A stretch of DNA of 64,000 nt from a candidate division LCP-89 bacterium B3_LCP (lineage in GTDB: Bacteria; Electryoneota; B3-LCP): positions 124,001 to 188,000 of the forward strand of contig NJBN01000004.1 in NCBI GenBank assembly GCA_005223185.1, in the 5' to 3' direction. The first letter of the stretch is position 1, and each line of letters opens with the position of its first letter. The notes below the pieces were generated by a model. It was given only the letters and a program-made list of their open reading frames with translations, ran no database searches and had not been told where the DNA came from. The translations under genes were made by a program, and so were the position numbers. Positions 3,123-56,620 of this stretch are shown one piece after another.

Positions 3123-3250
3123 CCCTGTCCGGGGCACCCACGGTCGTGCTATCCAACCGCGTAGGGGTTGACCTTGCGTCGACCCGCTAACGTCGGGGTC
3201 AGGGGCGACCCCGACTACGGGGTGGAGGGGGAAACACCCCCTCCCTACGG
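3123..3250. repeat. GC-rich repeat mosaic, family C (GTAGGGG.../GACCCC)
   Basis: A chain of short inverted segments: CCGGGGCACC, GTAGGGGTTGACC with GTCGACCC, GGGGTC with GACCCC, and GGAGGGGGAAACACCCCCTCC. Related phrases recur at 6323-6422, 24150-24178, 37667-37697 and inside the subtilase gene at 53470-53527. Confidence 0.6.
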
Positions 3251-24124: not shown

Positions 24125-24207
24125 CTAAAGAGAACTCGAAACCAGGGCGCGTAGGGGTCGGCCTTGCGCCGACCCGCAAACAAGAAACCAAAAACAAGGA
24201 GTTTATC

Positions 24208-51942: not shown

Positions 51943-52088
51943 GAGAATTTATCCTGTGAAATTGATGCTTTTTATTCTGGAATTACACTGCTGAAATGTT
52001 ACGAAATAAACACTGGAAAATCAAGGAAAATTGGGGGGAAATTTTTCTGACAACCGTGAACTGAGAACAGGGAATTCCTGGTTTGATC

Positions 52089-53318
52089 TTATTTCAGCAG
52101 CACCGCCTTCAAGACTTCATACACATTCCCAGAGGTAGCAACTTGAATAAAATATATACCACCTGGTAAACCACTGGCATTGAAGTTGATCCGGTGGGAG
52201 CCTCGGGAGAAGCGTCCATCTGCCAACATTGTAATTTGCCTGCCGGTTATATTATAAACAGTAACGTTAACGTTATCGGCTGCAGGCAGGTTGAGCAACA
52301 AGGTCGCTTGCGAATTGAATACAGCTGGAAACAGGGATAGAGAGAAGCCATCCGTAAGATTTACTGGTGAAGTCAGTTCGATGCCGGAGGCGGTGTAGTC
52401 TATATCGATGAATACCGGCAGGTGATCGGAGGCTTCGTGAAGGGCGTTGGCGACCTCCTCAGAAACGGCGTAATTGGGCATCGTGTTAATTGCCCCGTTG
52501 AAATGCTGCCCATCATTGCCGAAAGAAGTGTAACTGCCTTCCTGGTATTCCCATTCATCACCATCGATCCATAAGGGCGTGGCTAAAGCAAAATCGAAGC
52601 GGTCGTCCATGCCGCCCGGTGCGCCTCCGCCAAACTGAGTGATTCGAGGAGACTGCGTATGTACGTCAGCATACTGACTGCTGTTATGCCAGTACCCCGG
52701 TGTATCTATGGGATCGATGAAGAGAGAATCCGCAAGCAGCGCCTGATAACCCGGTTCGGCGCTGTAATAGAAATTGAGATCACCGCAGAGCAATAGATTG
52801 CTGTCTCGCAAATCGTTGGCATCGATCCAGGCGATGAAATCCAGCACTTCGGATAACCTCCTCTGCTCCTCGACAGTCCCCTGCGACGCCTTCAGATGGG
52901 TAGTGGCGATATAGACCAAAGGTCGCAAATCGCCAGCAATATAGTTCAGCTCGTAAACCTCAAAATTCCTGAGATCGGTTTCTATGGTATGAATATCCAG
53001 CAGTTCAAACTGATCAGGTTTGAAATAGAGCATAGCATCGCTGTCACCGATGGTTACGTAATCGGCTCTCACCCAGATTGCCGCATCCAGCACACCCTGC
53101 AGGAACTGATCAGCGCCTGCTGAGGACATCATCTCCTGGCAGACCAGTATATCGGGTGAGATGCTATCTAAGACAGTTACAAAGTATTCGATCCTCTCAG
53201 TTCCCTGACTGTTGGGGAAGTTCAGCAGGTTATAGCTACAGATTCGTAGTACAGCCTGCGCGGAAATATTGAAGGAAATTATCAGAACGCTTATATAACA
53301 AACTATTCTCATCATCAC
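52089..53318 (-). CDS. Secreted endonuclease/exonuclease/phosphatase-fold protein with T9SS-type C-terminus
   Basis: A 409-residue exported protein. Signal peptide to about residue 22 (ending ISAQA). The EEP fold shows CSYNLLNFPN, the metal Glu in LVCQEMMSS, the catalytic block LLCGDLNFYY and the C-terminal His in ASDHLPVFIDI. Substrate may be nucleic acid or a phosphoester; cannot be decided. The last 80 residues form a sorting-type domain with a weak motif LFPAVFNSQATLLL in place of YPNPFN, and the ITGRQITML and SGLPGGIYFIQV strands. It follows the subtilase gene by 23 bases and is probably in the same transcript. Confidence 0.85.
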   Translation of the reverse strand: MMMRIVCYISVLIISFNISAQAVLRICSYNLLNFPNSQGTERIEYFVTVLDSISPDILVCQEMMSSAGADQFLQGVLDAAIWVRADYVTIGDSDAMLYFKPDQFELLDIHTIETDLRNFEVYELNYIAGDLRPLVYIATTHLKASQGTVEEQRRLSEVLDFIAWIDANDLRDSNLLLCGDLNFYYSAEPGYQALLADSLFIDPIDTPGYWHNSSQYADVHTQSPRITQFGGGAPGGMDDRFDFALATPLWIDGDEWEYQEGSYTSFGNDGQHFNGAINTMPNYAVSEEVANALHEASDHLPVFIDIDYTASGIELTSPVNLTDGFSLSLFPAVFNSQATLLLNLPAADNVNVTVYNITGRQITMLADGRFSRGSHRINFNASGLPGGIYFIQVATSGNVYEVLKAVLLK

Positions 53319-53341: not shown

Positions 53342-56300
53342 TTATTTCATCAGAACCATTTTCCCTGAAGCCGAAAATTTACCTGCCGTCAGGCGGTATA
53401 TGTATATGCCGGATGCAAGACCAGAACCATCGAAGCTGATTCGGTGAGTGCCGGGGGGATACCAATCTTGTAGGGGTAGCCCTCTGTGGCTACCCGAAAC
53501 AGGGCGACCACAGAGGGTAGCCCCTACATTACGCCCAGTAATATCAAACACTTCCAGTTTAACCAAACTCGTAACCGGTAACTGAAAACTGATAACTGCG
53601 GTCGGATTGAAGGGATTTGGATATGCAGGCATCACAGCGAAATCATTCGGTACAGCAGGTAGAGCAGGCGGTAACTCCACCGCGGTTGGTTCCACGGTCA
53701 GAGAAACAGGTATTAAGATATCGTCCTGGGGGGCGTTGTGCTGGATAAGCATGTTGACTTCATAATCTCCGGGAGGAACTTGTGCTGCATCCAGAGTCAC
53801 CATGGCTATCAATGCATCACCAGGAAGTATAGTGCCGCCGGGGGGATCAATGTCAAACCAGGGGGCATAGGCATTTAGGGAAATGTACTGTACTCGGTCG
53901 GAAACCCCTTGAATCATACCAACAAAGCACCAGCGATCAGGATCGATGCTGCCGGAGATGGTGGCGCCTCCAGCTATCTCACCAGAGGCGCCGATCAAAT
54001 CGGTTACAAATAGAGGTTCTCCGTTGTCGGGATTGACCTTGCTGACACGCAGCCCAGCCGGAGTTCCATCCTGTGAGAAGATATACAGTTTCATACCGTC
54101 CTCATCTTCAGGATGCCAGGCTAAACCGGATACATGCAGATCGTGTCCTATCGTTTGTTGTATGGCTCCATCTCTATCAATTTCCAGAATGTTCGAGGTG
54201 TCATCACAAGCGAAGAAATGGTCAGTTTGAGGATCGTACGCTAAAGCTGTATGCAGGTACAGAGGACCGGTGATAGTATCCTGCACAACACCTGTCAGGT
54301 CAATCCCGAAAATCTGGGAATTATCCGATCCATACAGAAACTGCCCATCCCAGGCGAGATCCCTCCAACCCAGACCAGAAGTTGAGAGGGGTTGATCCAA
54401 CGTTCCAAGCAGTTCACCATCGAAGGAGAAGCGGTATAGCTTGTTGGGTTCACTACCTGAATTGCCTCCGCTGACCCAGACTGATTCTTCCACGACTTCC
54501 ACTCCGAAGAGTTCATCATCACCGGTGACTATCTCAGCTTGTATTCCAGAATAAATCTCAAAGGGATTCCAATCGCCCTTTTTGCTGAATGCCACCTCCA
54601 GGTTTCCCGTGCCACCATTATGAATGGCGACCGGTGTTTGGAGTGAATTTCCCAATGGCAAAGCGGCTTGAATTGAGGAGACGTCGAGCCAGATCTGCGG
54701 TCCTGTCAACGCTACTGACAGCGTTTCTACTACACCAACGGTGAAAGAGGTACCTTCGACCCAGAGTGTGTCATACCCATTAGCGGTGAAAACCACGTTA
54801 TGTGAACCTTCAGGAATACCGGGAAGGAGATAGTATCCAGAAGAATCTGTGGAGGTCTGTATTCCTGAACTGGGAAAAGCAACGATCGCTTCTATAATGG
54901 AGAGTCCGGTGCTGGAATCGGATACTGTTCCAGTTAGAGCGGCAGTGGTTTGAAGCAACAACTGCGATACTGCTGCGAAAGCATCCAATCTACCGCAGCC
55001 CCAGTTGTTGTCCTTGCCCGGTTCGCCCATGTCGATAGCCGTAGTCATGATGATTTCCGCCAGGATTTCAGGGGAAGCGGTGGGATTGACGGAAAGCATC
55101 AGGCAGAAGGTTCCTCCCAGGTGGGGCGTAGCCGCTGAGGTTCCTCCGAAAGTGGTGTAACCAATCCCTAAAGTCGTCGTCAAAACGTTTGAAGGAGCAG
55201 CCAGATCGGGTTTTAATAATCCCTGGAAGCTACCGCTCTGATATGGATAATCGTCATAACGAGATAACCAGGGATGTCCATAAGTTGGATCTAACTGGAG
55301 AATATCCTGCAGGTACCAGGATGAGGGACCTAGGCCTGAATAACTCATCAGGGAGTAACTAAAATTGTACGCTCCAACCCCCAAAACGGAAGATACTCCC
55401 CCCACAAGAGTCTGATCCGGGTGCAGCCAGGGTGGTGGGCAGTTACCCGGTGTGGAGATGTTGAAAGGAATGGGTGCATTCACCAGATTGTCGCCATCAT
55501 TACCGATGGAATTGGAGTGAATCAATCCGGCAGCTAATTCCATTTCCGTATTATGACGCATGGTGGCATAATCGGGTCTGCCGGACCAGTACCATTTAAA
55601 AGACATGGAACTCGTCAACGCGTCAGCGAGCATCATTATGGCGTACTGTTGCGCTTCCCAGTAGTAGCTTTCGCCACCAAGGTTTTTTAGGACCATGAGT
55701 TTAGCTTCAGGCGCTATACCGGTAGTATTTCCGTTGGTGCCATCACCAACCACAATTCCAGCGGTGGCAGTACCGTGTCCATTAACGTCCATGACCTCGG
55801 GATTCTGAAAATAGAACTCCCAGCCGCGCAAATCATCTATGTAACCATTGCCGTCATCATCTATCCCGTTGAAATCGGATGTATCCACGATCCCGTTGCC
55901 ATTTAGATCTTCACCGGGATTAACCCAGATATGATCAGCAAGATCAGGGTGATTATAGTCCACACCGGTATCGATAGTGGCAATCAAAATCCCGTCACCA
56001 CGATAACCTACATCCCAGACCATATCCGCCTTAATATCTTCAATTCCCCAGGAGAGTACATCCGTTGGTCCTTTTTGAGCACCTGACTTTAACGCATCCA
56101 GCATCTCTTCCAGCGGGCACTGGGGATCCCAGTGAACACGGGCAACTTCAGGGTGCCCCTTCAATAACTCCCGCAATTCTCGCGCTCGCACCTCAGCGGC
56201 GATTACATTACTGATCCAAAGCGGGCGTATATTTCGTGCATCTGTAGATAATCTCAGGTCTTCAAGATCGGTCCTCAAATAACTCTGGGTTTCATCTGCC

Positions 56301-56545
56301 AGCCTTTTTAATTGGGAAATTACCAGCTCTCGTCTAGATGGTTTCGACAGGAAACTCACTTGAGGATAGATATTATCTAAATAAAGTTGAGATTTCAATA
56401 CAAAGGCAACCGGCACGAACTCATCCGGATGAGTAAACTTAAGCACATGAGACAACTCAGATTCGATAAACTGAGCGGGAGAATCATTTGCCTGGGCAAC
56501 GAGCACAGCTAAGGTAAAAACTGCATAATATAGAATTCGTTTCAT
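53342..56545 (-). CDS. Secreted subtilisin-like serine protease with T9SS sorting domain and in-frame repeat insert
   Basis: A large exported S8 peptidase of about 1067 residues. The ATG at 56545 is preferred to 56554 because AGAGGA lies 8 bases before it. After a signal peptide (to about 25) comes a propeptide-like region, then the catalytic domain with Asp195 in ATIDTGVDY, His260 in NGHGTATAG, the oxyanion Asn352 and Ser473 in GGTSAATPH (numbered from the longer start). A carboxypeptidase-regulatory-like beta domain follows (about 540-620), then propeller-like repeats (about 650-890, DLAWDGQFLYGSDN and AYDPQTDHFFACDD). The C-terminus is a sorting domain (AYPNPFNPTAVISF) interrupted by a palindromic repeat at 53467-53530. 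Surface or released protease. Confidence 0.9.
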   Translation of the reverse strand: MKRILYYAVFTLAVLVAQANDSPAQFIESELSHVLKFTHPDEFVPVAFVLKSQLYLDNIYPQVSFLSKPSRRELVISQLKRLADETQSYLRTDLEDLRLSTDARNIRPLWISNVIAAEVRARELRELLKGHPEVARVHWDPQCPLEEMLDALKSGAQKGPTDVLSWGIEDIKADMVWDVGYRGDGILIATIDTGVDYNHPDLADHIWVNPGEDLNGNGIVDTSDFNGIDDDGNGYIDDLRGWEFYFQNPEVMDVNGHGTATAGIVVGDGTNGNTTGIAPEAKLMVLKNLGGESYYWEAQQYAIMMLADALTSSMSFKWYWSGRPDYATMRHNTEMELAAGLIHSNSIGNDGDNLVNAPIPFNISTPGNCPPPWLHPDQTLVGGVSSVLGVGAYNFSYSLMSYSGLGPSSWYLQDILQLDPTYGHPWLSRYDDYPYQSGSFQGLLKPDLAAPSNVLTTTLGIGYTTFGGTSAATPHLGGTFCLMLSVNPTASPEILAEIIMTTAIDMGEPGKDNNWGCGRLDAFAAVSQLLLQTTAALTGTVSDSSTGLSIIEAIVAFPSSGIQTSTDSSGYYLLPGIPEGSHNVVFTANGYDTLWVEGTSFTVGVVETLSVALTGPQIWLDVSSIQAALPLGNSLQTPVAIHNGGTGNLEVAFSKKGDWNPFEIYSGIQAEIVTGDDELFGVEVVEESVWVSGGNSGSEPNKLYRFSFDGELLGTLDQPLSTSGLGWRDLAWDGQFLYGSDNSQIFGIDLTGVVQDTITGPLYLHTALAYDPQTDHFFACDDTSNILEIDRDGAIQQTIGHDLHVSGLAWHPEDEDGMKLYIFSQDGTPAGLRVSKVNPDNGEPLFVTDLIGASGEIAGGATISGSIDPDRWCFVGMIQGVSDRVQYISLNAYAPWFDIDPPGGTILPGDALIAMVTLDAAQVPPGDYEVNMLIQHNAPQDDILIPVSLTVEPTAVELPPALPAVPNDFAVMPAYPNPFNPTAVISFQLPVTSLVKLEVFDITGRNVGATLCGRPVSGSHRGLPLQDWYPPGTHRISFDGSGLASGIYIYRLTAGKFSASGKMVLMK
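53467..53530. repeat. Palindromic family C repeat inside the subtilase coding sequence
   Basis: GTAGGGGTAGCCCTCTGTGG and its near-mirror CCACAGAGGGTAGCCCCTAC lie within the sorting domain, in frame. They encode about 18 residues (GATLCGRPVSGSHRGLP region) between ITGRNV and DWYPPGTHRISF, where related proteins have only a few residues. Confidence 0.8.
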
Positions 56546-56620
56546 CGTCAACATCCTCTGCTGAATAGCAGAACTGATTATACAAATCCAGCATTATGAA
56601 TCCGTAAAAATGCCAAATAA

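Follow-up and report, generated by a model that had tools for sequence, protein, structure and literature searches.

The window, a 64,000-nt stretch of DNA from a bacterium whose lineage is a family related to candidate division LCP-89, carries on its minus strand a gene for a secreted subtilase (53342..56554, 1070 aa), in which profile matches identify a Peptidase_S8 domain, a CarboxypepD_reg domain and a sorting domain. The last of these, a 93-aa T9SS type A C-terminal sorting domain (CTD; 53345..53623, minus strand), is assigned by the curated NCBIfam cut-off for TIGR04183 (29.7 bits, cut-off 23) and scores slightly below that of Pfam PF18962 (24.7 against 27). About 125 nt ahead of the stop codon the CTD contains a 58-bp palindromic unit (53470..53527, minus strand), which is translated in frame as NVGATLCGRPVSGSHRGLPLQDWYPPGTH. 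An earlier note on this DNA had described the repeat as lying in frame inside a secreted protease, and the inverted repeat, its fold, the open reading frame and both the subtilase and the T9SS domains were confirmed. The unit, referred to here as type A, is located directly after the motif D(I/V)xGRx, at the position of the canonical loop VxxLVNGxRDAG, which is conserved in outgroups. The adjoining gene (52089..53318, minus strand), with which the earlier note had compared it, has a CTD of the empty kind, with the short loop. The note's estimate of about 18 extra residues has to be reduced, since the repeat mostly replaces the canonical loop and the net gain is about 12–13 residues.

In an AlphaFold2 model of the subtilase CTD (mean pLDDT 79), the repeat-encoded residues are disordered (pLDDT below 50 at residues 37–47) and lie between the strands formed by residues 19–26 and 51–55, which, together with the kept frame, agrees with the proposed insertion in a loop between two strands. 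A fold search with this model returned generic Ig-like matches only, all of them with E above 0.001. DNA resembling GTTATCAGTTTTCAGTTACC frequently encodes the CTD strand VISFQLPVTSLVKL and has a similar counterpart between genes (53560-53600 and 52057-52075 in the window; 1740-1770 in locus L019), possibly representing another repeat family entering the CTD.

Read in the sense of the gene, the type-A unit is built of GTAG, a first hairpin, a 6-nt spacer, a second hairpin and CTAC. Hairpin 1 (53502..53523, minus strand) has an 8-bp stem, GGGCTACC/GGTCGCCC, and the loop CTCTGT; hairpin 2 (53474..53495, minus strand) has an 8-bp stem, GGGTAGCC/GGCTACCC, and the loop ACAGAG, complementary to that of hairpin 1. 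The arms of the inverted repeat occupy 53469-53489 and 53508-53528, and the fold is far more stable than that of shuffled sequences on both strands (z ~ -8). Among 11 type-A relatives, covariation favours the two-hairpin form, with seven pairs showing compensatory change (19 cells versus 6 in shuffles, 0/500), over a single long hairpin, which did no better than shuffles and was rejected. The unit is therefore composed of two inverted REPs separated by a spacer, the plan of a REPIN, and its GTAG/CTAC outer ends and 8-bp stems carry the tag of the GTAG REP superfamily; a second type, B, carries the same tag in the architecture CGC-GTAG-stem. On its sequence features, the window palindrome thus belongs to the GTAG REP superfamily as a REPIN-like pair.

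The earlier note had likened the repeat to the Rickettsia palindromic elements (RPE), in-frame palindromes present in many unrelated protein genes, where loops or linkers are believed to accommodate them. The likeness extends to the presence of a mobile-type palindrome within a coding region, but the class is different: the tag is GTAG and the insertions are in one domain family, whereas RPE-4 and RPE-6 bear a CGTC tag and have no known dedicated transposase (PMC3733652). GTAG-tagged stem-loop REPs, single or in inverted pairs, are known in frame inside ORFs, and different REPs are found at about the same site of recB in X. campestris and X. oryzae (Di Nocera et al. 2013, PMC3733652). Those elements resemble the present ones in all these respects, but they are scattered over unrelated, often repair, genes. 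REPINs, in which two inverted REPs and a spacer form a unit with hairpins kept by compensatory change, have been described in extragenic space (Bertels and Rainey 2011, PMC3116915); the type-A unit shares their paired organization, spacer and compensatory change but has few copies, all of which lie in coding DNA or, in one case, a CTD fragment.

A search of the 3.79-Mb genome yielded eight clear copies of the type-A unit, all eight at the same codon of the CTD loop. No exact 58-bp copy of the eight is intergenic outside a CTD or CTD fragment; one lies in an orphan CTD fragment with no upstream secreted domain (L017, C2:34570-34797). Type A thus lacks the dispersed, mostly intergenic distribution that is usual, though not strictly required, among GTAG REPs, and the earlier description of it as an intergenic-type repeat applies to related single REPs, such as two of the window, and not to the 58-bp unit itself. 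Two weak leftover matches are single hairpins directly past the stop codons of CTD genes (L019, 1510-1533; L020, 1504-1530, the latter followed by a T run) and are terminator-like.

The insert of the subtilase is real but not isolated, as at least 56 CTDs of this genome carry such inserts. The CTD sample comprised at least 186 sequences, its sorting-domain part being the best 150 of 338 first-look candidates. A GTAG REP occupies the same point in 56 of the 186 collected CTDs (130 are empty), a proportion that is no unbiased rate because the sample was drawn partly via searches for REP-bearing CTDs. About ten sequence types are represented: A (n = 8), B (n = 20, plus 5 reversed), which is the single REP GTAGGGGTCGGTCTTGCGCCGACCC and its variants, and C, D, E, F, G, H, I and J, which are further single REPs and pairs. 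They vary in length, unit number and orientation, and the peptides that they encode are unrelated (VGVGLAPTR, GSAQDRPLR, VGAGFAEGTLKGKPAPT and others), while the reading frame is kept in every intact REP-bearing CTD.

Type B has 37 copies in the genome, 21 in CTDs and 16 between genes, and none of the 16 non-CTD copies is inside another real gene. Two intergenic examples are found on the plus strand of the window: a type-B REP preceded by CGC (24151..24175) and a type-B-like REP (3161..3185) followed by the unit TCGGGGTCAGGGGCGACCCCGACTAC, as in CTD loops 1 and 2. CGC precedes GTAG in nearly all the type-B copies listed, both intergenic and in CTDs. Loop 2 of the CTD, just before GKMVLMK, also contains REP-derived residues (SGSGATPT; TCGGGGTCAGGGGCGACCCCGACTAC) in several CTDs, for example L308, L195, L205, L051 and L291, and in the related genomes G001 and G004. 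A possible third loop insertion is present in L307 (C16:31930-32400; FDPIGAGASHLASG versus FDGSDLASG), with no clear palindrome. With respect to the T9SS type A sorting domain as defined by TIGR04183 and PF18962, loop 1 and sometimes loop 2 are thus replaced or extended by REP residues.

The same arrangement is found in five other genera of the family, with at least 49 REP-bearing CTDs, many of which contain REPs absent from the window's genome; ten further examples were found among contig matches from named genomes. Homologues, compared as the earlier note had proposed, either keep the loop short or carry a palindrome of another sequence; the same residues coded without a palindrome were not seen. 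In a pattern search of 39 genomes of the phylum, three genomes of the family were clearly above control (G001, G004 and that of the window); the other three showed little or no excess, although REP-bearing CTDs were read there. Outside the family the pattern was not above control, a result that applies to one form of REP because the search detects only REPs starting with GTAGGGG, in one orientation. Outgroup CTDs from Ignavibacteria, Balneolales and Calditrichota have the short canonical loop.

In a tree built from CTD flanking DNA, with the loop omitted, 55 of the 56 filled CTDs fall in one clade together with two empty ones (SH-aLRT 97), and the tree implies 26 changes of REP type. A careful tree restricted to this clade requires at least 23 type changes, compared with 32 when labels are shuffled. 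Constraining a type to a single clade is rejected for A (p-AU 0.002), C (0.018) and F (0.046) and not for D (0.079), and many branches are weak because the flanks are only 207 nt long. Over 306 CTDs from the six genera and outgroups, the DNA tree has only 8 changes between REP presence and absence, and the protein tree 14. Few changes in presence and many in type indicate that the REP-bearing CTD is old and that its resident REP is still changing. The eight near-consensus type-B REPs of CTDs have a median identity of 100%, while identity between their flanks is 69% (51% at third codon positions), and most of these REPs exactly match intergenic copies. At 155-162 kb of contig C7, five neighbouring CTD genes have right flanks up to 95% alike and contain four REP types.

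An insertion junction can be read directly in L308, a CTD outside the REP clade, in which a 24-nt REP is flanked by AAGG and AACTGG in an otherwise short loop, the nearest relatives having no insert; a second REP is present in its loop 2. Nothing was duplicated or lost at this junction, so that the target site duplication of a MITE or classical transposon is absent from it. A GTAG or CT target, considered as a candidate, is also missing from the clean L308 junction, and a target rule of the IS200/IS605 kind is not recognisable at CTD junctions. Two REP-bearing CTDs from other genera (L402 and L397) retain, downstream of the REP, the residues that make up an empty loop. Comparison of the CTDs in this way bears out the earlier proposal that the repeat can enter genes. 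Most REP-loop CTDs lack the original turn residues, and therefore simple insertion alone does not fully account for their present state.

The genome contains ten Y1 transposase genes. One of them, on the minus strand, is a REP-associated tyrosine transposase (RAYT) gene (L155, C18:283068, locus 1390-1932; NF047646, 96.5 bits, cut-off 80) and is flanked on both sides by type-B REPs. Type B therefore has the associated RAYT gene expected of a GTAG REP, and from its sequence context this locus is likely the REPtron for the commonest REP of the CTD loops. A second Y1 gene scores slightly below the RAYT cut-off and is adjoined by a longer B variant. No RAYT gene was found beside type-A copies in the window's genome. 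A third Y1 transposase gene (L159/L058, C14:126195-126413) holds a type-C pair in frame within its ORF, so that the pair sits in a gene of the very type believed to mobilise it. TnpA-REP proteins act on single-stranded GTAG hairpins, the tag and the hairpin being the recognition features (PMC8266576). The candidate system described here resembles those REPtrons in that one REP, with GTAG tag and hairpin, lies on both sides of a RAYT gene, and a RAYT may have moved the REPs of the CTDs.

We consider it probable that one permissive loop of a duplicated CTD is a fixed harbour, repeatedly entered by mobile REPs that replace one another. The comparisons establish the element boundaries and the kept frame, and show that REPs recur at one codon across many paralogues and genera, that at least one insertion was clean, and that the distribution of REP types does not follow the CTD tree; from these sequence comparisons we infer the movement of the REPs itself. 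GTAG REPs and REP pairs would be small non-autonomous mobile elements, usually intergenic, which in this LCP-89-related family repeatedly entered one surface loop of the T9SS CTD. A REP-bearing CTD would have arisen before the genera split and then been duplicated onto many secreted proteins; its resident REP would later have given way, many times, to REPs of the family that happened to be active in the genome concerned. RAYT transposases acting on single-stranded hairpins are the likely agents, and gene conversion between CTDs probably contributes. The loop would tolerate any open-frame peptide. T9SS systems that have been studied remove the CTD once the protein has been exported. With such tolerance, and with the CTD discarded as in those systems, the loop would be kept and an insert would do little harm.

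A larger role for gene conversion is a possible though unlikely alternative, by which REPs spread among CTDs mainly through homologous recombination, with few true insertions. The CTDs are numerous, clustered and similar, and those that share a REP type resemble each other more than expected over the 24 nt on the left side of the REP (A, p 0.01; B, 0/300 resamples). Short conversion tracts would account for this likeness, and so would insertion of elements that bring their own edges; part of the shared edge (CGC) does belong to the element. The correlation between left and right flanks is also not lower in REP-bearing CTDs (Mantel r 0.20) than in the nearest short-loop CTDs (0.14), a result that does not support REP-driven recombination between CTD halves. 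Conversion would, moreover, leave unexplained the identity of CTD and intergenic copies, the presence of type-B REPs in both orientations, and L308.

Two further proposals seem doubtful. In the first, the REP hairpin acts at the mRNA level, close to the gene's 3' end, in stability or attenuation, and selection for this keeps REPs in CTDs. The distance of the element from the stop codon, the compensatory changes in the stems and the location of known REPs mostly just 3' of genes (PMC3733652) are in its favour, but 130 of the 186 collected CTDs have no REP and the compensatory changes could predate insertion. In the second, to which we give similarly little credence, the CTD loop would be not a passive tolerant spot but a dedicated exchange site, whose cassette the RAYT/REP system keeps replacing, so that one domain family would be a reservoir of mobile palindromes and a platform for their diversity, and perhaps for that of the sorting signal. 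It is very unlikely that selection has acted on the REP-encoded peptide itself as a working component of the sorting signal: although no intact case has lost the frame, the model shows a disordered loop, and peptides as unrelated as those of the different REP types make a shared function improbable.

A single ancestral insertion followed only by CTD duplication and ordinary divergence, with the REP types as diverged descendants, is largely refuted, and we hold it to be extremely improbable. The single clade of 55 of 56 filled CTDs and the rarity of presence changes would suit it, but it is contradicted by the 23 type changes, by the rejection of type A as a clade, by the disparity of the types in length, unit number and orientation, and by type-B REPs that are identical to each other where flanks differ by 31%, and to intergenic copies. 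An assembly or read error, or a chance palindrome, in favour of which nothing was found, is practically negligible given the strength of the fold, the occurrence of the eight copies on several contigs and the same pattern in other genera, the recurrence alone excluding the read error that the earlier note had allowed for.

The preferred reading, a permissive CTD loop repeatedly entered by REPs, involves elements that are themselves familiar, since GTAG REPs, REPINs and intragenic REPs were already known. In the open-access literature we found no description of REPs in T9SS sorting domains, nor of recurrent colonisation of one codon, in one domain family and at least 56 genes of a genome, with many REP types exchanged. 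Little is known about the spread and landing sites of REPs, since an insertion between genes rarely has a homologous empty site to be compared with. The present genome alone offers at least 186 paralogous targets, of which 56 hold a REP and 130 do not; their junctions can be read, many REP families occur at a single site, and the pattern recurs in six genera, so that target choice, replacement and the role of RAYT become testable by comparison. For the bacteria of this family, mobile DNA would be repeatedly creating new in-frame peptide in the secretion signal of dozens of exported proteins, within a domain which these proteins would lose after export if their T9SS resembles those studied.
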